33,363 bases of DNA, from NCBI GenBank assembly GCA_003669615.1, contig QWOO01000046.1, positions 1-33,363 of the forward strand, given 5' to 3'. The stretch is from Planctomycetota bacterium. Its GTDB lineage: Bacteria > Planctomycetota > Planctomycetia > Planctomycetales > Planctomycetaceae. Both the position numbers and the translations under genes were made by a program. This document shows, in pieces, positions 8,206 through 25,052 of this stretch. The first letter of the stretch is position 1; each line of letters starts with the position of its first letter. A model generated the notes under the pieces. That model saw only the letters and a program-made list of their open reading frames with translations. It did no database searches and was not told the origin of the DNA.

Positions 8206-8247
8206 AGCTCAGATTCCGATCTGTTAATGAATTTAAACCCGGATACC

Positions 8248-8292
8248 AAAAGAATAAGGCCGCAGGAGAACTTTGAGAGTTCATCTGCGGCC
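8248..8292 (-). terminator. Nested hairpin terminator of the DUF6263-type gene
   Basis: GGCCGCAG (8258-8265) pairs perfectly with CTGCGGCC (8285-8292), and inside the loop GAACT pairs with AGTTC. Reading the minus strand, the stem is followed by TTATTCTTTT (8257-8248), a good U-rich tail. It therefore terminates the gene ending at 8388, isolating it from the membrane-protein gene that follows. Confidence 0.75.
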
Positions 8293-8387
8293 CGGAGGTT
8301 AAAATTCTTCAGAATACAGAATGCGAGATCAGGTTTTTTCAATCCTGAAAACTGTCCACTATCTTGTTCTGCAGAATACCGACTTCT

Positions 8388-9272
8388 TTATTCAGCCAGC
8401 ACCATGGACGTTTTCTGACGCAGGGTTTGTGGAATCTGAGTTCCGAACTGCTTAACCATTAACTCCATGGTGAGGTCCAGATCGGACTTTGCAATGCGAC
8501 CTTTGGCCACGTCAAACATAACCGTTCCCTTGCCTTCTGACTTCTTCATCGTCAACGTGATCGGTGCGCCTTCTTTTGGCTTCACATCGATCTTTGGCTG
8601 CATTGTGATTTTGGCCAGACCGTTTTCGGTTCCTTCGTAGGTCAGGGTTGAAGAAACTGTCATGGTTCCAAATGGCAGTTCAACCTTCTGATTGCTTTCC
8701 CACGAGTCTCCTGCTTTGATGGCTTCGGCCGGCAATGTCACGGCCGACTGAGTCATCATCTGCTTGAGAGTGTCTTCATTCATCGCATTGCCGGCCGGGC
8801 CGGATTCCGTCAGTGCCTTCAACAGCGACGGTGGTACAGTCACCTGCTGGACTTTACCTGTCGGTTGCATCGTGACTCCGAATTCCTGTCCGACGATCTT
8901 CTTGAAAACTTCAGCCATTGATTTCACCAGTGGGGAATCCACGGCGTCTTTGCTGCTGGAGTCAAATTGAACCGCGCCGAACGGGCCTCCCTCCGACTTG
9001 AACTGCACGCGGTCGACGATCTGAGACATCTTTGTGTCACCATTGGACTCGATGGAAGCGATCTTCCACGCCATGTCCATCGTCTGGTTCATTGTCATCG
9101 CCTGCTTTTGACCGTTCAGGTCCATTTCCATTTGGGTGGACTGCTGGACGACGTATTTTAACGACTCACCCGCCGTGAATTTCCATGCCAGGCTGTCCTG
9201 AGCGATTCCGGCAGAGCAGCCAAGGAACATCGCGACGATCAAAGAAATGTTGGAAATGCAACGTGACACCAT
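8388..9272 (-). CDS. Secreted DUF6263-type protein of unknown function
   Basis: A 294-residue exported protein. Residues 1-25 form a signal peptide (hydrophobic core ISLIVAMFLG, likely cleavage after GIA). The mature part begins with LAWKFTAGESLKYVVQQ and is rich in Met, Gln, Thr and Lys beta-strand-like segments, with a later AGDSWESNQKVELPFGTM block. The pattern agrees with the DUF6263 group found in planctomycetes and bacteroidetes; function is unknown. A Cys at position 19 follows FLG, but the lipobox is poor, so release to the periplasm or surface is more likely than lipidation. A GGGAGAG ribosome-binding site lies about ten bases before the ATG, inside a short palindrome. It is an independent unit with its own terminator. 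Confidence 0.75.
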   Translation of the reverse strand: MVSRCISNISLIVAMFLGCSAGIAQDSLAWKFTAGESLKYVVQQSTQMEMDLNGQKQAMTMNQTMDMAWKIASIESNGDTKMSQIVDRVQFKSEGGPFGAVQFDSSSKDAVDSPLVKSMAEVFKKIVGQEFGVTMQPTGKVQQVTVPPSLLKALTESGPAGNAMNEDTLKQMMTQSAVTLPAEAIKAGDSWESNQKVELPFGTMTVSSTLTYEGTENGLAKITMQPKIDVKPKEGAPITLTMKKSEGKGTVMFDVAKGRIAKSDLDLTMELMVKQFGTQIPQTLRQKTSMVLAE

Positions 9273-9274
9273 CA

Positions 9275-9318
9275 GAGAGCTCTCCCGATGAACTGGCCGA
9301 CATTCAGAATGTCCGGCC
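9275..9318 (-). promoter_or_regulatory. Leader hairpin and palindrome over the ribosome-binding site
   Basis: GGCCGACATTC (9295-9305) pairs with GAATGTCCGGCC (9307-9318) with one bulged base. Immediately closer to the gene is the perfect ten-base palindrome GAGAGCTCTC (9275-9284), which overlaps the GGGAGAG ribosome-binding site. Both sit within 46 bases upstream of the secreted-protein start. They could be a translational control element or an operator; no known riboswitch class is recognised. Confidence 0.35.
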
Positions 9319-9415
9319 GATAGAGTAAGAACTGGGTTTCAACAGGCCCGTACCTCGCCCATGTCTGTTTGGGCGGATACGAAGCATATCAGAACGAACA
9401 ATTTTCCAAGAAGAG

Positions 9416-9487
9416 CGATTCCGTCCCGGGCGATTCCGATGGTTTTCGCCTGAAAAATCGAAAAAAGTATTCCGGACGACGATTCCG
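9416..9487. repeat. Short CGATTCCG repeats between genes
   Basis: The octamer CGATTCCG occurs at 9416-9423, 9431-9438 and 9480-9487, and a partial copy (ATTCCG) at about 9469-9474. On the minus strand these read CGGAAT(CG) four times in roughly 75 bases, upstream of the DUF6263-type gene and just after the mutarotase stop codon. They may be binding sites for a regulator; chance is not excluded. Confidence 0.4.
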
Positions 9488-9937
9488 TTAGCTGGCCTGA
9501 CGAACTCCGACGGTCAGAAGCAAGTTTGCCCATAATGCCTGGTCGCCCGTCTGAATCGTCAGCACGTGATCCCGGGACTCCACTGCGTCATAGAAATCCC
9601 AGCGAGAGATGGGAGTCAGCTCAATCGGCTGGCCGGCTGCCGAAAGGATCGAGCGGTACTCATTCCATACCGGAGGATCATGAGGCAGGCGGTATGGATC
9701 GTCGTCCGGCATTCCCATGGTGCTGACCGCCTCAACAGGAATGGCCGTCAGCAGGACTCGCAGCACCTGAGCGACGGTCACCATGCCGGGCGCAAGATTC
9801 AGGCTGATCAGTTCCGCTTTGGGGCCGATAGCGGAAGACGCAGGATAATTGCCATCGGCGATAAGGACTTTGGAACTGTGGCCGGCGCGAGCCAGGATTC
9901 GAGAGATTTCGGGATGGATGAGTTCAGAGCGAAGCAT
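9488..9937 (-). CDS. FucU/RbsD-family sugar mutarotase
   Basis: The 149-residue product matches the FucU/RbsD family, which interconverts anomers of free sugars (fucose, ribose). Markers are IHPEISRILARAGHSSKVLIADGNYPA, here split as His20 and Asp28 in the active site, and the C-terminal block QTGDQALWANLLLTVGV, which follows the FucU pattern (TGE..YANIILKKGV) better than RbsD. A likely preference for L-fucose or a related sugar is therefore an inference. It is cytoplasmic and probably decameric or smaller by family. It lies 121 bases downstream of the DHPS-like gene on the same strand; no sugar kinase, isomerase or transporter is adjacent. Confidence 0.88.
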   Translation of the reverse strand: MLRSELIHPEISRILARAGHSSKVLIADGNYPASSAIGPKAELISLNLAPGMVTVAQVLRVLLTAIPVEAVSTMGMPDDDPYRLPHDPPVWNEYRSILSAAGQPIELTPISRWDFYDAVESRDHVLTIQTGDQALWANLLLTVGVRQAS

Positions 9938-10058
9938 GGAGCCTTTTTCTTTCAGGAAGCAGGAATGTTTTTGGGCAAATACGACTGCGAGGCCCGGATC
10001 TTATCCCCTGTGAAGTTTGCTGCCAGCGAATCAAATTCATCTGCAGACACAGTCGTCA

Positions 10059-11480
10059 TCAGGATTTTTCGTCCTGATGCCGTGCGGCCGAAGAAGAAGC
10101 CTTGAGTTCCCCCAGCAGTCCCCAGGTCATCGTTTCATCCTGGATATATTGTTTCCCGAGATGCAACGCTATTTCTGCGCGGGCCATTTCATATCCCAGA
10201 TAAAACGCATGGTTACTGTCGATGGCGTTTCCGGCTTCGACCTGTCGAGCAGCAGCGGCCGCGAAAATCCGGAACGGATCAGCACCATGCCCGTAGCCTT
10301 TGCTGTTCATCAAATGCAACTCGCCGGACTCTGCGAATATCCGAAAGTTCTCATCGGACAACGCAGCAGACAGCTTTTGCAGCGCGGACTGCGAGGTCGG
10401 TTTGAGACGCGAATCGCGCAACATGACAAGCGATGAACTCAGGTGCTTGGGAATTGTTCTGGCGGCGACCGCGTGGTGAACCATCCGTCGAGCCGCATCG
10501 AATTCCGCCACGGCAGATCGGCACCAATTGATCACCTGAGTTGTCAGAATACTTTGAATTCCCAGGTCTTCGCAAATGGCAGCAAGCAGCATGTTGACGC
10601 CGGCGGAATCCACTTCTGTGAGTTCCGTAATGTTGCCAACACCCATCATCATGGCGACTTCCGGATGTTTCTGCCGCACACGAATGTAGCGGTCCAGAGA
10701 AGACGTGAAGCCCATGCCGATGGGTTCGATAATGGGATCAGCACGGAACCGTACTTTCGCGGCCGACAGGCGTTCGATCAGGCGATCGAGCGAATCCATG
10801 TCATCCGGAGTATCCGGGATAGCGACCACTTCTGTCTCGAGCTGAGTCACCCAGTCAAAATTGCCATGGTTACAGCTGAGGATAAGTTCTGCGCCTGCCC
10901 GGACTGCCTGTTCCACTTCATGGCGATCGAAGCTGTCGATCGAGACTCGAATTCCTTCACTTCGCAGCGCTGTCACGATATCAAAAACACGCGGGCTGCT
11001 TTCACCCGGTGAACCGCCTACATCGATCATGTTCGCGCCGGACGCGATCAAGACGCGGGCTTCACGGAGGATGTCCGAGAGCGGTAATTGCGTGGCGTGG
11101 TTAATTTCTGCAATGATTTCCGTCGAATATCGACTTAGATCCACCGTGCGGCGTTTGCCGAGTCCGAAATGTTCAGGCAGGTCTCGCAGATCCCGAGGCC
11201 CGCGTTCAAACGGTTTCCCAAAATGCAGTTCAAGAGCTGCGAGGTCGCCCTGGCACCAGCCTGGCAGAATCACGCGGTCAATGTGATCCGGTACCTCCAG
11301 TCGTCGAAGCAGAAGGCTGGAATGCAACAGCGCGGCCACCTGGATTCCGGGCACCGCGATCTCATAACGGAAGCCGAGCCGAGCGGCGATTTTTTCGACT
11401 TCTTCACGCAGGCTTGCCTCTGCGAGTCGCCCGGTGACGAACAGCAGTGACGCCGGAGATTGTTGCTGCGGAAGAGACAT
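10059..11480 (-). CDS. Dihydropteroate synthase-like protein (DUF6513 plus DHPS-like barrel)
   Basis: A 473-residue two-part protein. Residues 1 to about 130 form an N-terminal domain (LLFVTGRLAEASLREEVEKI, then ILPGWCQGDL) resembling DUF6513. Residues from about 130 to 370 form a DHPS-like TIM barrel with NMIDVGGSPGES, VSIDSF and LSCNHGN, and a further C-terminal part with MNSKGYGHGADPF. This is the architecture of the dihydropteroate synthase-related family (TIGR00284) found in methanogens, methylotrophs and planctomycetes next to tetrahydromethanopterin-linked C1 genes. A role in H4MPT cofactor synthesis is accepted only by association, and it is not the standard FolP. No other C1 gene is visible in this window. 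Upstream by 135 bases is the unusual SDR. Confidence 0.88.
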   Translation of the reverse strand: MSLPQQQSPASLLFVTGRLAEASLREEVEKIAARLGFRYEIAVPGIQVAALLHSSLLLRRLEVPDHIDRVILPGWCQGDLAALELHFGKPFERGPRDLRDLPEHFGLGKRRTVDLSRYSTEIIAEINHATQLPLSDILREARVLIASGANMIDVGGSPGESSPRVFDIVTALRSEGIRVSIDSFDRHEVEQAVRAGAELILSCNHGNFDWVTQLETEVVAIPDTPDDMDSLDRLIERLSAAKVRFRADPIIEPIGMGFTSSLDRYIRVRQKHPEVAMMMGVGNITELTEVDSAGVNMLLAAICEDLGIQSILTTQVINWCRSAVAEFDAARRMVHHAVAARTIPKHLSSSLVMLRDSRLKPTSQSALQKLSAALSDENFRIFAESGELHLMNSKGYGHGADPFRIFAAAAARQVEAGNAIDSNHAFYLGYEMARAEIALHLGKQYIQDETMTWGLLGELKASSSAARHQDEKS

Positions 11481-11615
11481 AAAGTTTCAGAGGCGGTTCA
11501 AAGGCGAGCACCGTCGGTTCGATGATAGGTGTTGATATGAGCGAACGATTCGTGTTACGTTAAGTCTTCGTTTTTCTGCCATGCGTACGTTTTGAGTTAA
11601 AGGGAAATTCTCTTT

Positions 11616-12374
11616 CTAGCGTACGGCACCGCCATTCACGTTGATGATCTGGCCGGTAATAAAAGCGGCTTCTTCGCTCAGCAGAAATCTGGCCATGTTG
11701 GCAATATCCTCAGGCTCTCCCCAACGTTTCAGGGGAGTCTCTGACATCACTCGCTGCTGCCAATACTCGCTGGCTGTTTCGCCCCACGCAGTTCGGATCC
11801 AGCCTGGCGCAATACAATTGACTCGAACATGAGGCGCCAGGCTGACGGCCAGCGAACGACTGAATCCCATGATCGAATTTTTGGCCGCTGCGAAAAGTTC
11901 GCCGCTGTCGCCTTCCATGCCGCGATCCGATTGATCCCAGCCGATGTTGATGATCGCTCCTTGCTGCTGGCTTTGGAACCGACGGCCAAAAGCGCGAGAC
12001 AATTCAATCGTGCCCAGCACATCGACCTGAAGGAGTCGATCCAGTTTGACGGAGAATTCGGCGCCCTTGAATTCTGTAGTGAGTAAATCTGCACCTGCGT
12101 TGTTGATGAGGGCATGCACAGGGCCGATTTTGAAGGCCTCAGAAAGCAGACGTTCGCGGTCGTTGCTGTCAGCCACGTTTGCCTGAATAACATTCGAGGA
12201 GACTCCCAGACTCACCAGTTCTGCAGCGACCTCATGAGCTTGCTCAATTGACTTCTGGCAATTCAGGATGATGTCTGCGCCGGCCTTCGCGCATTCAATC
12301 GCAATCGCGCGACCGATGCCGGACGAAGAGCCAGTGATGACGACTCTTTTACCTGTCAGTGATGCAAAGGGCAT
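11616..12374 (-). CDS. SDR-family protein with replaced catalytic residues
   Basis: A 252-residue short-chain dehydrogenase/reductase-fold protein. The NAD(P)-binding loop TGSSSGIG (14-21), NNAG (91-94) and a C-terminal GQIINVNGG are normal. The active site is not: the usual Asn of helix 4 is Asp118 (QVDVLG), the catalytic Ser region reads INIGWDQ (143-148) instead of INISS, and the Tyr of YxxxK is Phe161 in ELFAAAK, leaving only Lys165. FabG, PTR1 and similar enzymes need this Tyr, so the protein may use another mechanism or act as a binding or scaffold protein. Start ATG 12374 is preferred; an in-frame GTG lies two codons upstream. It probably shares a transcript with the DHPS-like gene, which hints at, but does not show, a pterin role. 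Confidence 0.85.
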   Translation of the reverse strand: MPFASLTGKRVVITGSSSGIGRAIAIECAKAGADIILNCQKSIEQAHEVAAELVSLGVSSNVIQANVADSNDRERLLSEAFKIGPVHALINNAGADLLTTEFKGAEFSVKLDRLLQVDVLGTIELSRAFGRRFQSQQQGAIINIGWDQSDRGMEGDSGELFAAAKNSIMGFSRSLAVSLAPHVRVNCIAPGWIRTAWGETASEYWQQRVMSETPLKRWGEPEDIANMARFLLSEEAAFITGQIINVNGGAVR

Positions 12375-12705
12375 GGGCACGGGAATTCAGAAGGAAATGA
12401 AAGAGAGTTTTAGAATGGCAGAATAACGGTTTTCCTGCCGCAACGCGATGATATCTCGATACGCAACAGCGGCCTGAATGGCATGATTCACCACCGGGCG
12501 ATCAGAAGAATACGGAAAAACATTGGGGAATTAGCCAGTTCGTTTCTCAACGGTCACTAGTACCGAACACCTGAACACGTGCTCAAGTCTCTATTGAGGC
12601 AACGTTCGCAGCGAGAATAAACTACGAGGGCCACTTTCCTGATCTCGGGTCAGCAGCGTCGTGCTGTCCTGTGTCCTGTTGAACAACTTACGTGCGTCCC
12701 ATCCG
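12375..12705. other. Divergent intergenic region, no gene seen
   Basis: About 330 bases between the minus-strand SDR gene and the plus-strand SGNH-like gene. It should contain both promoters. I found no convincing -35/-10 pair, no strong hairpin and no open frame with coding character. A CACGTG hexamer lies near 12577 but has no supporting context. Confidence 0.4.
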
Positions 12706-13872
12706 ATGCCTCTTCAACCCCTCACTGCCGTAAAACATGCGACCACAGCACTGGTGCTGTTGCTTGTTGCATTGGCAGGCGTTGAAATCTGGCTGCGGAC
12801 GCGCCCCATGCCTTCTGTGCAAATAATCGCCTCAACCGCAAGTGTGATTGATCAGCCGCTGTTAATGCCATCTGCCGTTTGTCATCACGAACTTCGTCGA
12901 TTGCAAAAGACAACTGTTAGTCCGGGGCAGGGGGTCGAGCCGGTCCGTTTTCGAGTCAATTCGCTGGGCTGTCGGGGGCCGGATGTGGCGACGCCTGCAG
13001 CCCCGGGTTTGTATCGTATCCTGATTCTTGGCGACGATTCTGTTTGTGGTAGTGGAGTGGCTGAAGAAGAAACCATCGCCGCTCGGTTGAAGCAGTTTCT
13101 CTCAAAGTCCACGACCGCTGAAATTGAAGTGATCAATGGAGGAGTTCCCGGATATTGTCCATTGCTTTCTTCATTGAAGTTTGAGCACGATCTGGCCCGC
13201 TTGAAGCCTGACCTCGTCATTCTGCATGTGGACATGACAGATATCGGCGACGACAGCCGATATCGCAGTCTCGTTCTGCACGACGGGGATCACGCGATTT
13301 GTTCCCATGCGTCGTTTCGGCTACAGGCGAAGTCGGCAAGCATGCTGATGCAGCTCACGAAACAGTCGGCGACCGCCTGCTGGTTCGTAGCTCAGACACG
13401 ACGGCATGCTCCGGAATTGTTGTCCGTTGCGACGACTGCTGAACAATCTTCTTCTGGCCTGACATGGATCACGGACCATCCGCCCGATTTGCGTCTGCAG
13501 ATTCGGCATGCCCTGGATCCCATTAAGAACCTTCAAGCTTCCGTGGCGAACGCCGGTGGTCAATTATTGGTCACAACCTCGCCAGTGCTTTGGCAGGTCG
13601 TTTCTGCGGACGAAGCACCTGATTTGAGTCGACAATACGGGGTCAGCGGAGCCACTCCGTATGCCAGCCTGTTTCCATTTGAGGTTCTGGCCAGTTTTTG
13701 TCGAGCCGGTAGTATTCATTTTTGCGATACCTCAGTAGCGTTTCGCAATGAAAATGCAGCAAAACTCTTTTCAAAGGATACCGTCGTGCTGTCTCGAATA
13801 GGCATGGCGTTGTATGCTCGTGAGATTGCTCGCTGCCTTCTGGCAGATCCACCATCGCAGTGGTCTCGGTAA
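12706..13872 (+). CDS. Membrane-anchored SGNH/GDSL-like protein with degraded active site
   Basis: A 388-residue protein with an N-terminal signal anchor (hydrophobic residues about 13-30) followed by an extracytoplasmic SGNH-hydrolase-like domain. The fold is recognisable from FRVNSLGCRGPD (82-93), ILILGDDSVCGSGVAEEET (105-123), INGGVPGYCP (143-152) and PDLVILHVDMTDIGDD (168-183). The key residues differ: GDS reads GDD-S with Asp111 at the nucleophile position, the Asn of block III is Thr178, and the C-terminal DxxH reads DTVV. It is therefore possibly a non-catalytic member. Members of this group are common in planctomycetes and often take part in polysaccharide acyl modification, but that role is unsupported here. 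ATG 12706 is chosen over an in-frame GTG at 12661. It precedes gdhA by 199 bases. Confidence 0.78.
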   Translation: MPLQPLTAVKHATTALVLLLVALAGVEIWLRTRPMPSVQIIASTASVIDQPLLMPSAVCHHELRRLQKTTVSPGQGVEPVRFRVNSLGCRGPDVATPAAPGLYRILILGDDSVCGSGVAEEETIAARLKQFLSKSTTAEIEVINGGVPGYCPLLSSLKFEHDLARLKPDLVILHVDMTDIGDDSRYRSLVLHDGDHAICSHASFRLQAKSASMLMQLTKQSATACWFVAQTRRHAPELLSVATTAEQSSSGLTWITDHPPDLRLQIRHALDPIKNLQASVANAGGQLLVTTSPVLWQVVSADEAPDLSRQYGVSGATPYASLFPFEVLASFCRAGSIHFCDTSVAFRNENAAKLFSKDTVVLSRIGMALYAREIARCLLADPPSQWSR

Positions 13873-13934
13873 TGTTTTCAGCAGAGATTAAAGATTCCCC
13901 ACAAGACGCTGCAGATGTTCCTGCTCCGCGATTC

Positions 13935-13948
13935 AGGAGAGAGGAATG
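13935..13948 (+). promoter_or_regulatory. Strong Shine-Dalgarno and ATG in frame upstream of gdhA
   Basis: AGGAGAGAGGA (13935-13945) directly precedes an ATG at 13946 that is in frame with gdhA, 42 codons before the family start at 14072. It is the best ribosome-binding site in this part of the window. It either starts an N-terminally extended enzyme or is coincidental; the extension is rich in Arg, Trp, His and Leu and unlike the rest of the gene. Confidence 0.4.
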
Positions 13949-14071
13949 TTCGACCGTTCCCGTCGATCGCTCCTGTTGCTTCATTGGAATCCGTGGATCA
14001 ACAACGTATATCGTCCCGTCAGGCATGCCCGATACGGCCTGCGATTTTGTTCCATTGACAGGTCTGGTGTT

Positions 14072-15304
14072 ATGAAGACTGCGTTTGAAGCTGCCCAACA
14101 ATATTTCGAAGAAGCTGCTGCAGTGATGAATCTTTCATCCAGCATGCGGAATCTGCTGCTGACTCCCGAGCGTGAAGTCAAAGTTCAGGTTCCGATCAAA
14201 CGAGATAACGGAGAAGTGGCAACGTTCATCGGATTTCGTATGCAGCACAACAGCAAACGGGGCCCGATGAAAGGCGGCCTGCGTTACCATCATGAGGTCA
14301 ACGCTGACGAAGTTCTTGCGCTGGCGTCGCTGATGACGTGGAAGACGGCCGTGGTTGATATTCCTTATGGGGGCGCGAAGGGCGGAATCAGCGTCAATCC
14401 GAAGGATCTTTCAATCGATGAACTCGAACGACTCACTCGTCGTTTTGTGGACGAGATCCATGATATCTTTGGCCCGGACAAGGATATTCCGGCGCCGGAC
14501 ATGGGCACGAATTCTCAGACCATGGCCTGGATTATGAATCAGTACGAAAAGTTTCATGGGTTCAGTCCTGGTTGTGTGACCGGCAAGCCCGTGGAACTGT
14601 ATGGGGCGGAAGGACGTGAAGAAGCGACCGGGCGAGGCGTTGGCACTCTGACGCTTGCTCTTTTGCGGAAGTACGGCCGGTCGATTGAAACGTCAACCGT
14701 TGCGATTCAGGGCTTCGGAAACGTGGGCACCTATACCGCTTCGTATTTGCACAAAGCGGGCGGTCGCATTGTGGCTGTCTCAGACGTCAGCGGCGCTGTG
14801 TTCAATCGTGAAGGGATTGATATTCCTGCGGCTCTGCAATGGGTGGCCGACAAAAATAGTCTGGCCGGGTTTCCCGGAGGTGACTCCATCACCAACGAAG
14901 CATTGCTGGCTCTTGATGTGGATGTTCTGATTCCCGCGGCTCTGGGAGGCGTTCTGACGGAAGACAATGCCGGGGACGTGCGGGCGAAATTCATCATCGA
15001 AGCGGCGAATGGTCCGACAACTCCCGAGGCGGATGCGATCTTTCATCAAAAAGATATCGTGGTGCTGCCCGACATTCTCGCCAACGCGGGCGGCGTGACC
15101 GTCAGCTATTTTGAATGGGTTCAGAATCAGCAGTATTTCCGCTGGGATTTAAGTCGCGTGCGTGAAGAACTTGAACGCACGATGACTCGCAGCTTTGATA
15201 AAGTGTGGTCGACTGCACAGGAAAAGAAGGTGTCGCTCCGAGTCGGCGCGTATCTTGTGGGTATTGGCCGCGTTGCTCGGGCGACAACCCTGGGCGGAAT
15301 TTGA
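14072..15304 (+). CDS. gdhA: Glutamate dehydrogenase
   Basis: A 410-residue hexameric-type Glu/Leu/Phe/Val dehydrogenase that interconverts glutamate with 2-oxoglutarate and ammonia. Visible residues: PMKGGLRYH (substrate Lys67), [18 protein letters not shown] with catalytic Lys103, PAPDMGT with Asp143, and the Rossmann loop GFGNVG (214-219). Length matches the ~410-420-residue bacterial/archaeal class rather than the 450-residue NADP class. Coenzyme preference cannot be fixed by eye. Start 14072 fits the family; an upstream in-frame ATG at 13946 has a stronger ribosome-binding site and would add 42 residues. It is followed after 53 bases by proA, so the pair probably forms an operon linking ammonia assimilation or glutamate turnover to proline synthesis. 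Confidence 0.94.
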
Positions 15305-15357
15305 CTGGATCCGGATCGCGTTGCTATCTTCTTGCTCCCACGCTCACCTGAAGTTTT

Positions 15358-16617
15358 ATGTCTATGTCTCTTGAGTATTCACAGTCGCTTGCTCGCAACT
15401 CGCGTGCCGCCTCTTCGGAACTTGCACCCATCGCCTCAGGTCGCAAAAACGCGTGGCTTCAGCGAGTTGCCAGTCTGCTGCGCACAAACAGTTCACTGAT
15501 CGTGACGGCGAACGAGAAGGATATGGACGCCGCCGCCGCAGCGGGCCTGAGTTCCGCGATGCTGGATCGTCTGAAGCTGACTTCGGATCGGATCGAAACC
15601 CTGGCGAAGGCTGTCCAACACATCATCTCCCTGCCAGATCCTGTCGGTGAAGTGATTGAAGGGCAGCGTCGGCCGAACGGGTTATTTGTCAGTCGCGTTC
15701 GAGTTCCTCTGGGTGTTGTTTTTTTTATCTACGAATCGCGTCCGAATGTCACGATTGACGCTGCCGCGCTGTGTGTCAAAAGCGGCAACGCGGTCATCCT
15801 GCGAGGTGGCAGCGAAGCGATTCACAGCAACCGGGCGTTGCAGCAGGTTATTCAGGAAGCGTTAGAGTCCGAGGGACTGCCAAAGAATGCTGTGCAGCTT
15901 GTGGATTCCATCGACCGAAGCATCGTGGGCGAGCTGCTTTCCATGGGCAGCCTGATCGATGTCACCATCCCACGCGGGGGACGGTCGCTGATTGAACGAG
16001 TCACTCGCGAAGCGACGATGCCCGTGATCAAGCACTTCGACGGGATCTGCCACGTCTATGTGGATGCGGCTTCCGACGAGAAGATGGCTGTCGACATCAC
16101 CGTCAACAGCAAGTGCCATCGACCTGGCGTGTGCAATGCTGCGGAGACGCTGTTGATTCATCGTGCGGCAGTTCCGCATCTGTTGCCGCGACTGGCTGCC
16201 GAGCTGCAGTCACACGGAGTGGAACTGCGCTGCTGTCCGGCCAGTCTCGCCATGATCTCGGGCGGGAAGCCGGTGACGGATGAAGATTATGGAACGGAGC
16301 ATATGGATCTGATCATGTCGGTGCGGATCGTGGATAACATCGAACAGGCGATTGAGCATATTCGCCGTTTTGGTTCCTCACACACAGATGCAATCGTTAC
16401 CGACTGCGTGTCGGCTGCGATGAAGTTCGAAGCCGAAGTGGATTCTGCAGCCGTGATGATTAATGCGAGCACTCGCTTCAACGACGGTGGAGAATTGGGC
16501 ATGGGTGCCGAGATCGGGATCAGTACTGATCGCTTTCATGCCCGCGGTCCCTGTGGAATGCGAGAGCTGACAAGCTACAAGTTCGTCGTTCGCGGAGTCG
16601 GCCAGATTCGCAGTTGA
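15358..16617 (+). CDS. proA: Gamma-glutamyl phosphate reductase
   Basis: A 419-residue ProA, which reduces gamma-glutamyl phosphate to glutamate-5-semialdehyde with NADPH in proline synthesis. The ALDH-like fold shows VPLGVVFFIYESRPNVT (117-133), SGNAVILRGGSEA (142-154), IPRGG (204-208) and the catalytic Cys259 in RPGVCNAAETLLIH, then SSHTDAIVT. Length is typical. Two in-frame ATGs (15358 and 15364) are equivalent; the first is used. It lies 53 bases after gdhA and ends before a strong hairpin terminator. The partner kinase gene proB is not adjacent. Confidence 0.96.
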   Translation: MSMSLEYSQSLARNSRAASSELAPIASGRKNAWLQRVASLLRTNSSLIVTANEKDMDAAAAAGLSSAMLDRLKLTSDRIETLAKAVQHIISLPDPVGEVIEGQRRPNGLFVSRVRVPLGVVFFIYESRPNVTIDAAALCVKSGNAVILRGGSEAIHSNRALQQVIQEALESEGLPKNAVQLVDSIDRSIVGELLSMGSLIDVTIPRGGRSLIERVTREATMPVIKHFDGICHVYVDAASDEKMAVDITVNSKCHRPGVCNAAETLLIHRAAVPHLLPRLAAELQSHGVELRCCPASLAMISGGKPVTDEDYGTEHMDLIMSVRIVDNIEQAIEHIRRFGSSHTDAIVTDCVSAAMKFEAEVDSAAVMINASTRFNDGGELGMGAEIGISTDRFHARGPCGMRELTSYKFVVRGVGQIRS

Positions 16618-17831: not shown

Positions 17832-18992
17832 ATGAAGTATCTTTTGGCTCAACCGTTTCTGGCAGCAGCGGCCCTGCTGTTTATGCTGAATTCCGTACAG
17901 ATATTGATCGCGCAGGAACCTGATCTCCAGCGCGCATCGCGAGCTCCGATTTCAGAAGCCGAGATCGTAGCCGCTCAACAGTTTGGACAGACACTATCGA
18001 TCGCAGAATGGCTGGGGCCAATGGCGCCGGTAGCGTTGTCGCCATTCTTTGGGATCACATGCCTGAGCGGAATGTCCCTGTTTGGAGCTGACTGGATCTC
18101 ACCGGGAAATCCCCTCATGGGAGAGAATTCGCCTCTGCATAACCCGGCTGTCTTCTGGACATTTCTTGCACTGACAATTGCCACATCAGTTCCGCGCCTT
18201 GCCAAAGTCAGTAAGCCGTTCGCTCAGGCACTTGATCAACTGGAGGCGTGGTCGGGAATCATCACCATGCTGGTCATGAAGGTGCTGCTTTCATCACAGT
18301 CCGACGTTGAAGAAGTCACCATTCCCGTGGCGCAGATGGGACTGATCAGTTTTTCGATGGACGTAGTTCTCATGATCGCCGCGGCCATTAATATTCTGGT
18401 CATTAACGCGGTGAAGTTTTTCTTTGAAGTCCTGATCTGGGTCACTCCTGTGCCGTTCCTTGACGCTGTCTTTGAGTTCTCCAACAAAGCCGTTTGCGCA
18501 GCCTTGATGGCTTTATATGCCTGGAGTCCTTCAACAGCTGCCGCAGTGAATGCGGCTATGTTCTTTGTGTGTTTCATGGTGTTTGGATGGATCTGGCGTA
18601 GCGAGATCTTCTTTCGAACTATGTTGCTGGAATTTTTCCGGTCCCAGCTCGGGAGATCGCGGCCAGGCACGTCGCTGGTTGTTTTTCCGGTGTCGGCCGT
18701 CGGGCCTATCAAAGCACGCGCGAAATGTTTCCTGCGTCGTTCGGACAACGGGTGGCAACTCGTGTATGAACCCTGGTTTCGACGAACTGTTTGCGTGGAG
18801 TTTGCGCCAGACAATCGGCCGCTGCTGCAGCGGGGGCTGATTTCTAATCAAATCCGCATGACGACTCCCTGCGTCACGTTCACCTTTGGCCGGCTTCACA
18901 ATGACTGCCTTCCCGACCTCGCCGTTTCAATGAACCTTGTCATGTTCGACGACGGTTCGTCAGTGTCGACAGTGAATGCGGAGTTCGTATGA
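17832..18992 (+). CDS. Polytopic membrane protein of unknown function, coupled to the NagA-like gene
   Basis: A 386-residue protein that I do not recognise. It starts with a signal-like helix (about 5-27), then about six more hydrophobic segments (about 62-85, 106-122, 141-153, 170-206 as two helices, 221-255 as one or two), and ends in a soluble domain from about 265 onwards with several Cys, Arg and Trp residues (GWQLVYEPWF, CVTFTFGRLHNDCLPD). Start 17832 gives a clean signal-anchor; an in-frame start at 17733 would add 33 residues with no clear motif. The stop codon overlaps the next start (ATGA), so the protein is translated together with the amidohydrolase, suggesting a shared task. A membrane transporter or scaffold is possible, but there is no direct evidence. 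Confidence 0.75.
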   Translation: MKYLLAQPFLAAAALLFMLNSVQILIAQEPDLQRASRAPISEAEIVAAQQFGQTLSIAEWLGPMAPVALSPFFGITCLSGMSLFGADWISPGNPLMGENSPLHNPAVFWTFLALTIATSVPRLAKVSKPFAQALDQLEAWSGIITMLVMKVLLSSQSDVEEVTIPVAQMGLISFSMDVVLMIAAAINILVINAVKFFFEVLIWVTPVPFLDAVFEFSNKAVCAALMALYAWSPSTAAAVNAAMFFVCFMVFGWIWRSEIFFRTMLLEFFRSQLGRSRPGTSLVVFPVSAVGPIKARAKCFLRRSDNGWQLVYEPWFRRTVCVEFAPDNRPLLQRGLISNQIRMTTPCVTFTFGRLHNDCLPDLAVSMNLVMFDDGSSVSTVNAEFV

Positions 18993-20209
18993 CAATGAGC
19001 CAGAGGAATCCAAGCCAAAACGAAGAACACTTTGCCATTATTAATGGCACTGTCGTTTTACCGGATGGTTTGCTGGCAAACGGCATGGTCGAATTTGTCG
19101 GCTCCCGAATTGTTGCCGTTGGACAAGAAGAGCAGCGTGACAGGTCCGTCCGGATTATCGATGCAAAAGGCGGCTATATCTCGCCCGGGTTTGTGGATAT
19201 CCACGTGCACGGCGGCGCTGGTTCTGATTTCATGGATGGAACTGCTGAAGCCGTCCGCATCGCCTGTGAAGCGCATGCGCGACATGGAACCACGACAATC
19301 TTTCCAACAACAACGACCGGAAGTTTTCCGCACATTATGACGATGATCAGTGCCTGTGAAGCGGTCGGTCGTGAGTTCGCCGGATCCTGTGGACCGACGT
19401 TGGCCGGTATTCATCTTTATGGTCCCTACTTTGCCGAAGACAAAGTGGGATGTCATCCCAAAGATGGCTGTCGGCCACCGAACAGCAGCGAATACGAAAA
19501 GTACTTTGCGACAAATCTGATTCGTGTTGCCACCTGTGCCGCTGAACTGCCGGGAGCAGGCGAGTTCTACAATTTAGCCCGGCGACATCAGTGCCTTGTC
19601 ACTTGCGGACATTCAAACTCCAGCTGGAATGAGATGCAGCTTGCCTTTGATGCCGGCATGAGGCATGTGGATCATTTTTGGTGTGCCATGAGTTCTGTGC
19701 CATCCATGCGGCAACGCTTTAACGTGCCCATGCAGGGGAGCATGGCCGAGTTTGTGCTGATGAATTCGGAGATGAGTACCGAGGTCATTGCGGATGGCTG
19801 TCATCTGGCTCCGGAACTTCTGGAGTTCGCATATCGCATGAAAGGCGCTACACGATTGTGTCTGGTCACCGACTGCAATCGTGCGCTCGATATGCCGCCT
19901 GGCGAATATCTGTTTGGAAACGCTGAAGAGGGGACAATGTTCCGCAGTGATGGCAAGGTTGGGTGGGCTCCCAACGGAAGTCTGGCAAGTTCCATCGTCG
20001 GTATGGACCACATGGTTCGGCATATGAGACAGAACACCTCCGCGTCACTTCCCGATGTCATTCGCATGGCCAGCCTGACGCCCGCCGAGCGAACGGAAAT
20101 TTCTCATGAGACCGGAAGTCTGGAAGTCGGCAAGCGCGCTGACATCGTTCTGCTGGATTCGGCGTTGAAAGTTGTGCAGACAATCGCCGCGGGGAAGTTT
20201 CTGGCTTAG
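18989..20209 (+). CDS. NagA-like amidohydrolase (N-acetylglucosamine-6-phosphate deacetylase family)
   Basis: A 406-residue amidohydrolase-superfamily TIM barrel nearest to NagA, which removes acetate from GlcNAc-6-phosphate. Metal and catalytic positions seen: HVH (His72, His74), GHSN with His208, HVDHF (His226/His229), DGCHL with His272 and LVTDCN with catalytic Asp295. The NagA motif HLEGPF reads HLYGPYF here, so the metal-ligand Glu is Tyr144, and the normal GAH motif reads GCHP. The enzyme may bind a single metal at the other site or have another substrate. The start overlaps the stop of the membrane protein gene by four bases (ATGA). No nagB is adjacent. It is convergent with the sulfotransferase gene 51 bases away. 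Confidence 0.88.
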   Translation: MTMSQRNPSQNEEHFAIINGTVVLPDGLLANGMVEFVGSRIVAVGQEEQRDRSVRIIDAKGGYISPGFVDIHVHGGAGSDFMDGTAEAVRIACEAHARHGTTTIFPTTTTGSFPHIMTMISACEAVGREFAGSCGPTLAGIHLYGPYFAEDKVGCHPKDGCRPPNSSEYEKYFATNLIRVATCAAELPGAGEFYNLARRHQCLVTCGHSNSSWNEMQLAFDAGMRHVDHFWCAMSSVPSMRQRFNVPMQGSMAEFVLMNSEMSTEVIADGCHLAPELLEFAYRMKGATRLCLVTDCNRALDMPPGEYLFGNAEEGTMFRSDGKVGWAPNGSLASSIVGMDHMVRHMRQNTSASLPDVIRMASLTPAERTEISHETGSLEVGKRADIVLLDSALKVVQTIAAGKFLA

Positions 20210-20260: not shown

Positions 20261-20953
20261 TTAGAAGCGATAATCGAACAACTGCATCTCGCGATGAAAT
20301 CGGGCGGCGATCTCATCGCGGCATTCGTCATCCAGAATTTCTGAGTAATGGCGTCGATCGGTTCGGTGTGAAGTCTTTGCCTGGGGCAGGACCAGCGGCT
20401 CCGGAATTCCAAGCCGCTGACGGATCTCGTCCAGATCGTGCGTCAGTGTTTCATAACGTCCGATCTTGTCGACAACAGGCTGCTCCCCGTCGAATGTGTA
20501 AAGAGAGATGCCGCGTGTGGAAAGAAGTTGAATTTCCTTGTGCTTCAGGAATTCAGCCATTGTTGGTCGCGGCTCAGTCTTGTGACACCAGTAATAGAGC
20601 GAGACTACTCGATCAAACGGATTGCGTTCGAAACAGAACTTGTAATACCCGTTCCAGATTTCGTCACCGATCAGATCGCGGACTTCGTGCGCCGGCATAT
20701 GGTTGTAAAATGCTTTTTGTCGCCTGCCGAACATCGTGCTGAAGAACGAGGATACTCGGCGCTTTCCAGGAGTGCGTCGGAAATTCTGCGGCCCGCGGTA
20801 GCCCAGCTGGCGGCGAATGTTTTCATCGTCGGATGAAACTGGCGTGATGATGTCATCATCGCCGAGGAATTTTGACAATGCGATCTCGATACTTGTTCCC
20901 GCGGTCTTGGCGGTCTTGAGAAAGATGAACCTGTACTTGTGCGAGATGATCAT
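20261..20953 (-). CDS. Sulfotransferase family 2-type protein
   Basis: A 230-residue PAPS-dependent sulfotransferase. The 5'-phosphosulfate loop is KTAKTAGTSIE (13-23) and the 3'-phosphate motif is ERNPFDRVVSLYYW (109-122) with Arg110 and Ser118. Both agree with the Sulfotransfer_2 group, which sulfates glycans in eukaryotes and marine bacteria. The chain is short and has no membrane anchor, so it would act in the cytoplasm on a sugar intermediate. The ATG at 20953 is used; an upstream TTG is possible. It lies 24 bases downstream of another sulfotransferase gene, making the last gene of a probable fkbM-exporter-ELM1-sulfotransferase run. Confidence 0.88.
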   Translation of the reverse strand: MIISHKYRFIFLKTAKTAGTSIEIALSKFLGDDDIITPVSSDDENIRRQLGYRGPQNFRRTPGKRRVSSFFSTMFGRRQKAFYNHMPAHEVRDLIGDEIWNGYYKFCFERNPFDRVVSLYYWCHKTEPRPTMAEFLKHKEIQLLSTRGISLYTFDGEQPVVDKIGRYETLTHDLDEIRQRLGIPEPLVLPQAKTSHRTDRRHYSEILDDECRDEIAARFHREMQLFDYRF

Positions 20954-20977
20954 GAGAGACAAGCCTGCTCAATGAGT

Positions 20978-21817
20978 TCATGCGGCGGACGGCTGAACAT
21001 TGAGTATTTGCCTGTATTTGTGAGTCCATGCATCGCCTGTTTCGTAACCAAGATCGATCAGCACTTCGGGCAGTTCAGGCATCTTCTGAAGCAGGACTCG
21101 GATTCTTTCCCGATGGGACTCGTCCTGCCAGCGGTTAAGATTTGTTTTATCCAGCGCACGCAGACCGTTCAACGCTCGCCCGTCGAAACCCGCTGGGACT
21201 GACTCGTGAAAATCGCAGAACGGACGCGAGACGGGCCATCCAGTCAGTTCGGCGACCTGGCATTCCACAACGTCAGGACGAGCGACCAGATCCTCGTAGC
21301 GAACAGGCAGCACGTCCGCTGCGGACACGGACCATTTCCAGTGTCGATAGACATGTCGCCACTGATCAACCGACACGAAATAGTCTGAGGGATTTGAAAA
21401 ATGAACGGAAGTGAGGATCGCGCGCGGATCGCGGCTCATCAGAATGAAACGTACGTCAGCCGTGTGAGATGCGTAAAAATCCCGCAATTCGGGGATCAAG
21501 AAAATGTCTTTGGGCCGTTTCGTCACCACGCGAGAATGTGTTCGACGGCCGTATTGCGCCATTTCCAGGCCGCGGCGCTCACGGCCGAATGTTCTGATGC
21601 CGTCGATGCACGATTCGATCATCAACTGGCACAGTGTGGTGCCACTCCGCGGGAAACCGCAGATCACGAGATGCTGCCGCAGTGGAACGGCTGGCAAGAG
21701 TCGTGAGTCCTGCATGCGAATCCACGGACGTATCAGCGGCTGCAGCAGAGACTTTGGAAACTGGAAGGTTGGAATGGATTTACAGATCGCTTCCGGTGGC
21801 AGTTCAGGTCGAGACAT
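20978..21817 (-). CDS. Sulfotransferase (PAPS-dependent)
   Basis: A 279-residue sulfotransferase of a different subgroup from its neighbour. The PAPS loop is GFPRSGTTL (54-62), the classic Sulfotransfer_1/3 form, and the 3'-phosphate motif is MSRDPRAILTSVH (127-139) with Arg129 and Ser137. The first 50 residues (PPEAICKSIPTFQFPKSLLQ) have no membrane helix. It likely transfers sulfate to a sugar of a surface glycan or to a lipid-linked intermediate. The ATG at 21817 has ACAGGA about eleven bases upstream. Downstream by 24 bases is a second sulfotransferase; the two differ in motif, so they probably modify different positions or sugars. Confidence 0.92.
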   Translation of the reverse strand: MSRPELPPEAICKSIPTFQFPKSLLQPLIRPWIRMQDSRLLPAVPLRQHLVICGFPRSGTTLCQLMIESCIDGIRTFGRERRGLEMAQYGRRTHSRVVTKRPKDIFLIPELRDFYASHTADVRFILMSRDPRAILTSVHFSNPSDYFVSVDQWRHVYRHWKWSVSAADVLPVRYEDLVARPDVVECQVAELTGWPVSRPFCDFHESVPAGFDGRALNGLRALDKTNLNRWQDESHRERIRVLLQKMPELPEVLIDLGYETGDAWTHKYRQILNVQPSAA

Positions 21818-21969
21818 GAAGCGAAAATCCTGTCATCCGATTCATTGTGCATTGTGACCAACGGCAATTGATTTAACGTCACGTTTCGGTCAGGTTGTTT
21901 TAGTTATCGGACGTCAGAGAAGAGACTGGCTGGTCTTCGACCCATGCTGCGATACGCATGCCATGGGCG

Positions 21970-23037
21970 TCAGTGAATGGGCACGTGAACGTTATTGGTG
22001 AATCCGGCAAGGCTTTCCAGTCGCGCTGAGCTATTGTCGAGAAGGTGGTTGGTGTTCAGGAAGTCTGTAAACAGACCTTGTCGCAAACCTGCCCATGATT
22101 GTGAAAGGCAATGATCCAGCACAGCTACGGAGCAGCGATCGGATTCAGAGAACGGTCGGCGAAACGCGGTCAATGAATCGCCTTTGATCCAGCGACTCCA
22201 CGGAGTTGCCAAAGAGTTCCGAGCGAGTCGCTCAATGTTTGCAGAGATGCGGCCAGCGAACAATGGTTTCAGTTCCAGAAGGCCGACTCTCGCGCCCGCG
22301 GTCAGGGCCTCATAAATCATCGACATGCTGTCGCAGGAGACCCAGACAACGCCGCTTTGACTCAGCTGTTCGGGCAGCCAGTCATTGGAGCAATCTCGGC
22401 ACGATACGATGGGAATGTGCGGAATCGTTTCTTCGCAGAGTCTCAGAAAGCTCGCGGGAGTTCTCTCGGATGTAGCAATCGTCCAACGAAGTTCGCTGTT
22501 GCAAGCGACTGCCTGAACCTGGTTTACAATTGCAGAATCTGACCAGTGAAAATGGCGGGATGGACCACCAATGAGGATCATCCCACGCTCATGATTTTGA
22601 CGTGTGGATGGCCGAACGCGATTCAGAGCACCCTCTGTGCGGATAACATTTCTGGCCGGAAAGAGCAGTCGGTCGTGAGCCGGGATCAAGCAAAGATCAA
22701 ACAAAGCCAGCGGAAGACTGGGCTTCATGATGACAATCGTGTGCCCGCCAAACCGCTTCTTACTCGCCAGCATCGGCAGGTGTGTGGAATGACCGGCCCC
22801 GATCAGCACGTCGGGCGAGGGCAGGGAATATCCAAAGTCGAGTCGACCCGGAAGCAGGCTTTTCAGGCCCGAAAGATCGCTGCGCACACGCACATCAAAC
22901 ACATCAACGTCATGATTTCTGCTGATGGCCTCGGTCAGACCCTTCACCTGGTTCTCGTGGCCCGGTCGACCATCAAGAAACTGCCAGATGGTCAACGGCA
23001 ATTGGTTCCGAATTCGTCGATGCATAACAAACCTCAT
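21970..23037 (-). CDS. ELM1/GtrOC1-family putative glycosyltransferase
   Basis: A 355-residue protein of the ELM1 (DUF1022) family, a GT-B-like group named after a plant mitochondrial fission protein but found in many Gram-negative bacteria near lipid A and LPS genes. The family signature WQFLDGRPGHENQVKGL starts at residue 18. Other marks are LIGAGHSTHLPMLASKKRFGG given as LIGAGHSTHLP, VIMKPSLP, ILIGGPSRHFHW and the nucleotide-sugar-site-like VVWVSCDSMSMIYEALTAGA region (near residue 230). The exact sugar is unknown. It starts 17 bases after the exporter gene stop, so the two are tightly linked; this pairing with an MsbA-like exporter fits a lipid A/LPS-type glycolipid role. Confidence 0.85.
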   Translation of the reverse strand: MRFVMHRRIRNQLPLTIWQFLDGRPGHENQVKGLTEAISRNHDVDVFDVRVRSDLSGLKSLLPGRLDFGYSLPSPDVLIGAGHSTHLPMLASKKRFGGHTIVIMKPSLPLALFDLCLIPAHDRLLFPARNVIRTEGALNRVRPSTRQNHERGMILIGGPSRHFHWSDSAIVNQVQAVACNSELRWTIATSERTPASFLRLCEETIPHIPIVSCRDCSNDWLPEQLSQSGVVWVSCDSMSMIYEALTAGARVGLLELKPLFAGRISANIERLARNSLATPWSRWIKGDSLTAFRRPFSESDRCSVAVLDHCLSQSWAGLRQGLFTDFLNTNHLLDNSSARLESLAGFTNNVHVPIH

Positions 23038-23054
23038 GATGACGGAGCATCGTG

Positions 23055-25052
23055 TCAGGCAGCGTCTCGAATAATCAGTTGGGGCTGATTCAGTGCGCGG
23101 TACGCGTCGCAGGATCGCATCAATTCTTCATGAGTGCCGGTGGCGACGATGCGGCCCTGATCCATAACCACGATGCGTGTGACAAGGTCGAGGAATGTTC
23201 GATTCAAAACATGGCTGATGATGAACACCGTCCGGTTCTTGGAAAATTCCTTGAGCACCGTGTGAATGACTTCTTCGCTCTGCGAATCCACTGCAGAAGT
23301 CGCTTCATCCAGAATCAGAATTGCCGGGTCTCTGAGAATCGCACGGGCCAGTGCAATACGCTGGCGCTGACCGCCGGAAAGCTTTCCACCCTTGTCACCG
23401 ATCACCGTGTCAAAGCCGTTCGGCAATTGACGAATGAACCCGGCAGCCTGGGCCTGGTTGGCGGCATCCAGCACCATTTCGCGAGTGGCCGAAGGGTTTC
23501 CGTATCGAATGTTTTCAAAAATCGTGTCGTTAAACAGCAGCGTGTCCTGCGTCACAAGCCCCATCTGGCTACGCAGATCGTGCGTACGCAATTCGCGAAT
23601 GTCCACGCCATCGATTAAGACTCGCCCCTCATGCGGATCCATGAATCGCGGCAGGAGGCTCAGCAGAGTGGATTTACCTGATCCGTTTCCGCCGACGATA
23701 GCGATGGCTTCGCCAAAACGAACATTGAGTGAGACACCCTTCAACGCGAGCGGCCGCTGATTTTCTTCTGCTTCAGTACCCTCGTACCGGAACGAGATGT
23801 CCTGCAGAGAAATCATGGAGGAGTGGCGAATCATCATGCGAGGTGATTTTGGCTCTGGAACGATGGAGCGTTCATCGATCAGGTCAAAGACTCTTTCAGA
23901 GCCCGCCATGCCGCGTTTTACCTGTTCAAAAATTCCGGACAACTTTCGGACCGGATCCAGAGTACCGGCCAGCAGCGCGTACAGTGTGGTCAGTTCCGCG
24001 ATACTCATGGTTTCTGAGGCCAATTTGATGCCGAGAATCGAATCGGTGTTTCGCAGCACCAGATAGGCGCCGGGAGCCAGAGCCGCAAAGACGGCGACGA
24101 CACCCATGATCTCGCTGATCGGCCGCACCAGAGCACCCAGTCGGACAATCTTCATGGAACCTGCATAGTAGTCACGATTCGCTTTCAGAAATTGTTTACG
24201 GTGCTTGCGAAAGCCGGAAAAGGCAATGACCACGCGAGCTGATCCGAATGTCTCCGAAATGCACTCGTAGATTCTTGCCATGCTCTCCATCGTTCGGTGC
24301 GATGCGCGACGCAGCCGCTTTCCGAACAGATTGAAAACCAGGCCGAGCAGCGGAACTACGGTGATGGCCAGCATTGTCAGCCGCCAGTTGACGTAGAACG
24401 CCAGCAGCGTGCAGGCACCTGCCTTCAGAGGCTCACGAACCAGTGTCACACCGAACACGCGGATTGCAGCCGTCATTTGTTCGATGTCGTTGGTCATACG
24501 CGACATCAGGGCCGATGTGCCAATCCGATTGAGCGACTGATAATCGAGCCGAAGTGCCGATCGGAAACAGTCCTGTCGAATGCTGTTGACGGTCAACTGA
24601 ACGACGCTGCCAACAAGCATTTCCTGATAGTAAATGAACAAGCCCTTCAGGAATGTCGCGGCCAGCAGTACACAGAGAATCAATGCCATCGCGTCGAATT
24701 TGTCTTTGGGAACGTAGGGCAATACGGATCGTCGAACCTTGGTCAGCATCAGCAGGTTTCGTGATCTTTCACTCGCTCTGTACTGTAGCTTAGCGCGTTC
24801 CTTTACCTGATCTTCAGGAATGGAATCAAGAGCTGCCGTATCTACGCGAATCGCTGTCTCCAACAACGCGATTTCATTTTCGACGTAATCATGCAGACTG
24901 TCGTTCTGGAACAGCACTTTGACGACCGGGAATGCAATTGAGAGATTCAGTGCCCAAAATGCAGACACAATACTTGCGCAAATGACCGACAGCACGAACA
25001 GCCGACGGTATGGCCAGACATACGAACCAATGCGAACGAAATCATGCATCAT
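23055..25052 (-). CDS. MsbA-like ABC exporter (fused permease and ATPase)
   Basis: A 665-residue half-transporter with an N-terminal six-helix domain (about 1-385) and a C-terminal ATPase. Walker A is GGNGSGKS (454-461), the signature is LSGGQRQR (558-565), Walker B is ILILDE (578-583) and the H-loop His is 614. It would work as a homodimer at the inner membrane and flip a lipid-linked glycan or lipid A. Between helix 1 and helix 2 is a charged hydrophilic insertion of about 70 residues (50-120) that ordinary MsbA lacks; it would face the periplasm. AAGGA lies about six bases before the ATG. It follows fkbM by 56 bases and precedes ELM1 by 17. Confidence 0.93.
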   Translation of the reverse strand: MMHDFVRIGSYVWPYRRLFVLSVICASIVSAFWALNLSIAFPVVKVLFQNDSLHDYVENEIALLETAIRVDTAALDSIPEDQVKERAKLQYRASERSRNLLMLTKVRRSVLPYVPKDKFDAMALILCVLLAATFLKGLFIYYQEMLVGSVVQLTVNSIRQDCFRSALRLDYQSLNRIGTSALMSRMTNDIEQMTAAIRVFGVTLVREPLKAGACTLLAFYVNWRLTMLAITVVPLLGLVFNLFGKRLRRASHRTMESMARIYECISETFGSARVVIAFSGFRKHRKQFLKANRDYYAGSMKIVRLGALVRPISEIMGVVAVFAALAPGAYLVLRNTDSILGIKLASETMSIAELTTLYALLAGTLDPVRKLSGIFEQVKRGMAGSERVFDLIDERSIVPEPKSPRMMIRHSSMISLQDISFRYEGTEAEENQRPLALKGVSLNVRFGEAIAIVGGNGSGKSTLLSLLPRFMDPHEGRVLIDGVDIRELRTHDLRSQMGLVTQDTLLFNDTIFENIRYGNPSATREMVLDAANQAQAAGFIRQLPNGFDTVIGDKGGKLSGGQRQRIALARAILRDPAILILDEATSAVDSQSEEVIHTVLKEFSKNRTVFIISHVLNRTFLDLVTRIVVMDQGRIVATGTHEELMRSCDAYRALNQPQLIIRDAA

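Follow-up and report, generated by a model that had tools for sequence, protein, structure and literature searches.

Results

A NagA-fold enzyme overlaps a membrane protein gene by four bases

The window, by which we mean the entire 33,363-nucleotide stretch of planctomycetal DNA analyzed here, carries two consecutive genes of interest on its forward strand. The upstream frame (17832..18992, + strand; ATG at 17832, stop codon at 18990-18992) encodes a membrane protein of 386 amino acids that neighbors the enzyme in this genome only. The downstream frame (18989..20209, + strand; ATG at 18989, stop codon ending at 20209) encodes a 406-residue NagA-fold amidohydrolase that belongs to a clade bearing the motif HLYGPYF. 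As originally predicted, the stop codon of the first gene and the start codon of the second overlap by ATGA (18989..18992, + strand), an arrangement that is absent from relatives and specific to this genome, and a GGAG lies just 5' of the enzyme start. A second in-frame ATG of the enzyme is located at 18995, 6 bases after the first; a start at that codon would instead leave a 2-base gap, so the exact overlap hinges on the choice of start.

To place the enzyme, we compared it with family models and solved structures. It matches Pfam Amidohydro_1 (7.4e-25) and scores 225.8 bits against TIGR00221, the nagA equivalog model (EC 3.5.1.25), passing the cut-off of 225.65 by 0.15 bits. A profile of 18 orthologues ranks NagA structures first, with B. 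subtilis NagA (2vhl) at 9.7e-70. The AlphaFold2 model of the enzyme (pLDDT 91) also has 2vhl as its best match (Z 55.7, rmsd 1.7, 382 residues); the remaining listed NagA entries score Z of at least 49, and the next amidohydrolases drop to Z 29. The profile, model, and structure matches thus identify the enzyme as NagA by fold. A scan for hydrophobic segments in the enzyme returned none, and we infer that it works as a soluble protein without need of a membrane partner.

The membrane protein has hydrophobic segments at about residues 1-28, 162-214, and 233-255, and its AlphaFold2 model, which is of low confidence (pLDDT 60), is helical to residue 273 and beta-rich beyond. Searches of Pfam, NCBIfam, and solved structures gave no sequence match, and Foldseek with the low-confidence model gave no match at E ≤0.001, with PH-like folds dominating the weaker matches. 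Clear homologues are present in 5 of 98 other relatives, and alignment to five homologues spans the protein end to end, one of them being shorter at the C-terminus. Only weak homologues (E about 1e-5) occur in 2 of 198 others of the phylum; such distant relatives, similar in layout, lie in another family of the phylum (L005, 1288-2427, - strand; L006, 994-2127, + strand).

The metal-ligand Glu is replaced by Tyr together with two further active-site changes

Orthologues of at least about 41% identity were found in 24 genomes (this one included; 40 relatives searched), and all 24 carry Tyr at the position of Tyr144. We then tabulated residues for 93 distinct Tyr-clade sequences against 29 Glu-type homologues, the 93 being drawn from the 24-genome set, the 80 best-ranked loci among 370 relatives from named genomes, and 3 sequences from a search with the NagA model. 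The 80-locus set was retrieved with peptide patterns, and since Asp228 and Cys232 form part of one pattern, the conservation of these two residues in that set is partly due to selection; the residue result is the same for the 24 clade sequences, which were obtained independently of the patterns. Likewise, 16 "canonical" rows of an earlier table had been chosen by an Asn-containing pattern, and the full table covers all 29 Glu-type sequences.

The solved NagA structures provide the functional assignments. In M. smegmatis NagA (MSNagA), the first metal is bound by His-56, His-58, and Asp-267 and the second by His-188 and His-209, while Glu-122 ligates both; a His in the loop from Glu-122 to Pro-136 is important for catalysis, and His-244 and Asn-212 contact sugar and phosphate (PMC6016474). 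Human AMDHD2 holds Zn on Glu143, His211, and His232 and contacts phosphate through Asn235, Ala236, His242*, and Arg243* (PMC8970586). Most of this set is retained throughout the clade. The first-metal ligands H72-V-H74 (19202..19210, + strand; role from MSNagA His-56/His-58, PMC6016474) are His in 93/93, the second-metal ligand His208 (19610..19612, + strand) and the catalytic Asp295 (19871..19873, + strand) are invariant in both the 93 and the 29 sequences, and the catalytic His156 and the sugar-contact His272 are each kept in 93/93.

Against this background, three positions differ. The residue aligned to the Glu common to both metals (MSNagA Glu-122, PMC6016474) is Tyr144 (codon 19418..19420, + strand) in 93/93 clade members versus Glu in 29/29 homologues. 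Asp228, which lies beside the second-metal ligand His229 (Asp228-His229, 19670..19675, + strand), is likewise found in 93/93, versus 27 Thr and 2 Ser in the Glu-type sequences, His229 being present in all. Cys232 (19682..19684, + strand; 93/93) stands where 28 of the Glu-type sequences have Asn and one has Ser; this is the phosphate-contacting Asn of AMDHD2 (Asn235) and MSNagA (Asn-212) (PMC8970586, PMC6016474). One locus of the clade (L052) has HYYGPYF as its motif. The prediction that HLYGPYF stands in place of HLEGPF, with Tyr144 at the position where solved NagA structures have the metal-ligand Glu, is therefore confirmed by alignment, and its fixation in 93/93 members indicates that Tyr144 is neither a sequencing error nor a chance substitution. 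Because Tyr144 replaces a metal ligand, the chemistry of the enzyme may differ from that of NagA, a further suggestion of the prediction to which the clade-wide Tyr and the linked active-site changes lend support.

The region of the partner-subunit Arg is more ambiguous. Met248 is also invariant in the clade (93/93), and MAFFT pairs it with the NagA Arg (29 of 29 Glu-type homologues), whereas HMMER sets the 6fv3 Arg pair against an Arg-x-Arg in the lengthened loop. As the two aligners treat the Met248 loop differently, we do not regard the phosphate-contacting Arg as demonstrably lost. Arg241 in this loop (Arg in 92/93, Lys in 1/93) may replace that Arg, and the partner subunit may still bind phosphate through the loop Arg-x-Arg, as judged from alignment.

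Loss of the ligand that is common to both metals in MSNagA (PMC6016474) raises the question of whether catalysis was lost with it, leaving a non-catalytic or regulatory protein. We consider this very unlikely, as the other ligands and the catalytic Asp and His are kept in 93/93 sequences and would be needless in a dead enzyme. With all other ligands and catalytic residues retained, an active metal-dependent deacylase is the best reading of the conservation pattern.

Tyr-bearing enzymes form one group with a patchy distribution

A tree was built from 65 of 122 usable sequences, 36 of them Tyr rows. The Tyr rows all fall into a single group with support of 100/98, and a Glu-bearing sequence (L175) joins just outside it with support of 100/99; deeper branches of the tree are weak or long. 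A single change from Glu to Tyr accounts for the data. Members of the Tyr clade come from Planctomycetota and Verrucomicrobiota, plus a small number of drafts that carry Acidobacteria or Proteobacteria labels; orthologues in Rhodopirellula europaea (L109) and Brevifollis gellanilyticus (L098) are among them. In a phylum sample of 199 genomes, 28 were listed by a profile search at E 1e-60. Seven of them scored over 540 bits and, after a clear gap, the rest at most 309; the 7 high-scoring genomes, some of which were read, look Tyr-type. The distribution of the Tyr type across the phylum sample is therefore patchy.

Glu-type paralogues coexist with the Tyr-type enzyme

Of the 24 Tyr-type genomes, 20 show a second, weaker match. 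All 20 of these matches (from this genome, G224, and 18 others) were read and carry Glu, so the Tyr-type gene is not the sole NagA candidate in these hosts. Among 37 loci tried for paralogues, 4 yielded no frame by pattern and the window's own copy (L178) was dropped; the Glu motif of L195 was taken from L187. One Glu-type group, with HxEGPxISxxDGPRGAH and with HLGNG for HLFNAM, is common in Planctomycetia (L002, L030-L035, and most of L192-L210).

Genomic linkage of nagA to nagB is usual in bacteria. The Glu-type gene directly adjoins NagB in two genomes whose gene layout was read (G232 and G121), and match coordinates place it side by side with NagB in two more (G224 and G221). By comparison, a NagB-like frame lies near the Tyr-type enzyme at 1 of 90 distinct loci; this frame, of 656 aa, is two genes from the enzyme on the opposite strand (L092, 4601-6571, - strand). 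NagB itself scores above cut-off in 30 of 40 relatives; among the 24 Tyr-type genomes it does so in 21. The 1/90 result therefore concerns linkage rather than absence of the pathway, and GlcN6P could be used in these hosts.

These data bear on whether the protein is simply an ordinary GlcNAc-6-phosphate deacetylase that tolerates Tyr and binds the phosphate via a re-arranged Arg loop. The NagA fold, acceptance by TIGR00221 at its cut-off, retention of His156 and His272 in every clade member, the nearly invariant Arg241 of the loop, and the presence of NagB in most host genomes all agree with such a function, and the TIGR00221, loop, and NagB results count against our preferred explanation. However, three linked active-site changes fall on one branch and include the phosphate-contacting Asn, a Glu-type paralogue occupies 20 of the 24 same genomes, and the Tyr-type gene shows no nagB linkage. 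On balance, we regard an ordinary deacetylase as doubtful and favor a NagA-fold deacylase with a changed substrate.

The membrane protein and the enzyme are not adjacent in relatives

From the ATGA overlap it had been predicted that the two genes are probably made in fixed ratio; a membrane partner with a C-terminal soluble domain had suggested uptake or sensing of an amino sugar or other acylated compound, and the pair was put forward as a possible undescribed two-gene unit. Lack of adjacency in related genomes had been set beforehand as the refuting outcome. We collected 104 enzyme loci, of which 90 are distinct, and searched all frames of at least 80 aa with the membrane protein. The only match was in the window; no relative of the membrane protein was found at the 89 other distinct enzyme loci. 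In G203 and G202, both genes are on one contig, 28.4 and 27.8 kb apart and in a different relative orientation; the membrane protein gene there adjoins a DUF1080-type gene, which flanks it in the window too, and faces genes that read as respiratory NADH-dehydrogenase. In G219 the two genes are on separate contigs, each with other neighbors, and in G216 the membrane protein is present and the best NagA relative is Glu-type. Enzyme adjacency was thus looked at in four of the five homologue-bearing genomes, the fifth being G266.

A real two-gene unit, perhaps confined to this lineage, would be in keeping with the ATGA overlap, the upstream GGAG, and the full length of both genes. Such a unit is nevertheless highly improbable given adjacency at 0 of 89 other loci, the wide separation and altered orientation in G202 and G203, the finding that G216, which has the membrane protein, offers only a Glu-type relative of NagA, and the ATGA coupling of the enzyme to a different gene elsewhere. 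As the pair is adjacent in no related genome examined, the two-gene unit is contradicted and an uptake or sensing role for a membrane partner goes unsupported; production in fixed ratio fares no better, the overlap with the membrane protein being confined to this genome. The membrane protein appears to be a chance neighbor rather than a partner.

How the two genes came together can be approached from the surrounding gene order. At the three nearest enzyme loci (G214, G203, and G202; 74-75% identity), an AsnB-like (asparagine-synthase-like) gene precedes the enzyme, with a phosphohexomutase ahead of it at two of the three. On the 3' side, the window and all three loci share two sulfotransferases, an ELM1-family gene, and an ABC exporter; in the window this row occupies 20261-25052 (- strand), and it is conserved beside the enzyme in L036, L037, and L038. 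Since the membrane protein and enzyme blocks are separate in relatives, the window represents a junction of two blocks, and the membrane protein would have been brought beside the enzyme by either a lineage-specific rearrangement or an assembly join.

The draft genome is 62% complete. Its AsnB-like gene, which shares 92% identity with the G203 gene, is on a contig that ends exactly at the gene's stop codon. Together with the AsnB-like gene that precedes the enzyme at the three closest loci, this contig end speaks for an assembly chimera at the junction. We consider a chimera unlikely, as the AsnB-like contig end and the window have no sequence in common, neither gene is truncated at the junction, and the window contains a second rearrangement, a block at 7639-16617 whose genes lie the other way round in G202 and G203 (L145, L144), which makes a real rearrangement plausible. 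A dispersed repeat was also considered as the cause of rearrangement; a 13-base core is found in both relevant intergenic stretches of the relatives, its 16-base form is absent from the genome studied here, and the idea was set aside as unproven.

A Gfo/Idh/MocA oxidoreductase is a better-supported partner in one group

In one Verrucomicrobiaceae group, the stop codon of a Gfo/Idh/MocA oxidoreductase gene directly upstream overlaps the enzyme's ATG as ATGA at 10 of 10 loci (L081, L082, L083, L085, L088, L089, L094, L095, L104, and L115). These ten loci are close relatives, and the coupling may therefore be one event. Because this coupling is repeated, unlike that of the window, the oxidoreductase is the better-supported partner, and its coupling to the enzyme fits a carbohydrate pathway.

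Elsewhere in the clade, the enzyme stands alone or behind other genes, and across the 90 distinct loci we found no conserved operon that would name the substrate. Of 74 close same-strand neighbors listed, 20 were scanned against Pfam. The neighbors are mixed and include xylose-isomerase-like barrels, sulfatases, esterases, and a polysaccharide deacetylase, as well as housekeeping genes such as adenylate kinase and a tRNA-synthetase-like gene (the sulfatase and tRNA-synthetase-like labels rest on sequence reading). Carbohydrate genes near the enzyme in several Verrucomicrobiota would fit a sugar substrate. An apparent fusion in L056, a 1749-aa open frame, was rejected, since the sequence ahead of the enzyme is of low complexity and the enzyme has a separate start. 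Separately, the window encodes a DUF6513 and pterin-binding protein (10059-11480, - strand), and L039 and L040 have a relative of it directly 3' of their Tyr-type enzyme gene. This may be a tetrahydromethanopterin-type C1 gene.

Discussion

Taken together, these observations suggest that the enzyme probably represents a distinct NagA-fold subfamily: an active deacylase with a remodelled metal centre and a changed substrate, without NagA-type 6-phosphate binding and without a membrane partner. On the branch leading to the clade, the bridging Glu gave way to Tyr, the Thr preceding the second-metal His to Asp, and the phosphate-holding Asn to Cys. The resulting enzyme is predicted to be active and to use metal in deacylating an N-acyl amino sugar or a close analogue; one or two metals would be held by H72/H74/D295 and H208/H229. 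Tyr144 may serve as a phenolate ligand or may no longer be a ligand, in which case the enzyme would be mononuclear at the first site, while Asp228 possibly supplies the missing negative charge. The 6-phosphate would presumably not be bound in the manner of NagA.

A stronger version of this proposal, which we put forward only tentatively, is that the clade makes up a family of metallo-deacylases that has not been described before. In this family a Tyr phenolate would stand in for the bridging Glu, possibly favoring Fe(III), the new Asp would restore the charge, and the substrate would be an N-acyl sugar that lacks the phosphate or is altered in some other way, in some members with an ATGA-coupled Gfo/Idh/MocA oxidoreductase.

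If the distinct-subfamily reading is correct, automatic annotation assigns the wrong substrate to an enzyme that is widespread in Planctomycetota and Verrucomicrobiota, and thereby distorts the predicted use of chitin and amino sugars in these phyla. Furthermore, Tyr at the bridging position would be an unusual way of building a metal site in a superfamily that has been studied well. The pairing with the membrane protein should be dropped.

A literature search of limited scope found no paper on a Tyr-for-Glu variant of NagA; the fold and superfamily are already known, and the residue set is new as far as this limited search tells. Altered metal centres do have precedent in the superfamily among mononuclear amidohydrolases with a changed bridging position, such as the type-I dihydroorotase of Aquifex aeolicus (PMC3880350). 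That enzyme belongs to a different branch, however, and is not known to carry a Tyr at the strand-4 ligand position. Closer at hand are the Glu-type NagA paralogues of the same bacteria, which belong to the same superfamily and coexist with the Tyr type in 20 of 24 genomes, but which keep the Glu and occupy a separate branch of the tree; seven tabulated paralogues of the HxEGPxISxxDGPRGAH kind also keep the Thr and the Asn and have QxN for HxH. Relative to NagA itself (B. subtilis 2vhl, M. smegmatis 6fv3, and human AMDHD2 7nut), the enzyme shares the whole fold and two-domain layout, the second-metal His pair, the catalytic Asp, the catalytic His, and the sugar-contact His, with an HxH as in the B. 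subtilis and mycobacterial enzymes. It departs from NagA in having Tyr for the metal-ligand Glu, Asp for Thr, and Cys for the phosphate-contacting Asn, in its longer and rebuilt Arg loop, and in a gene that is not linked to nagB.
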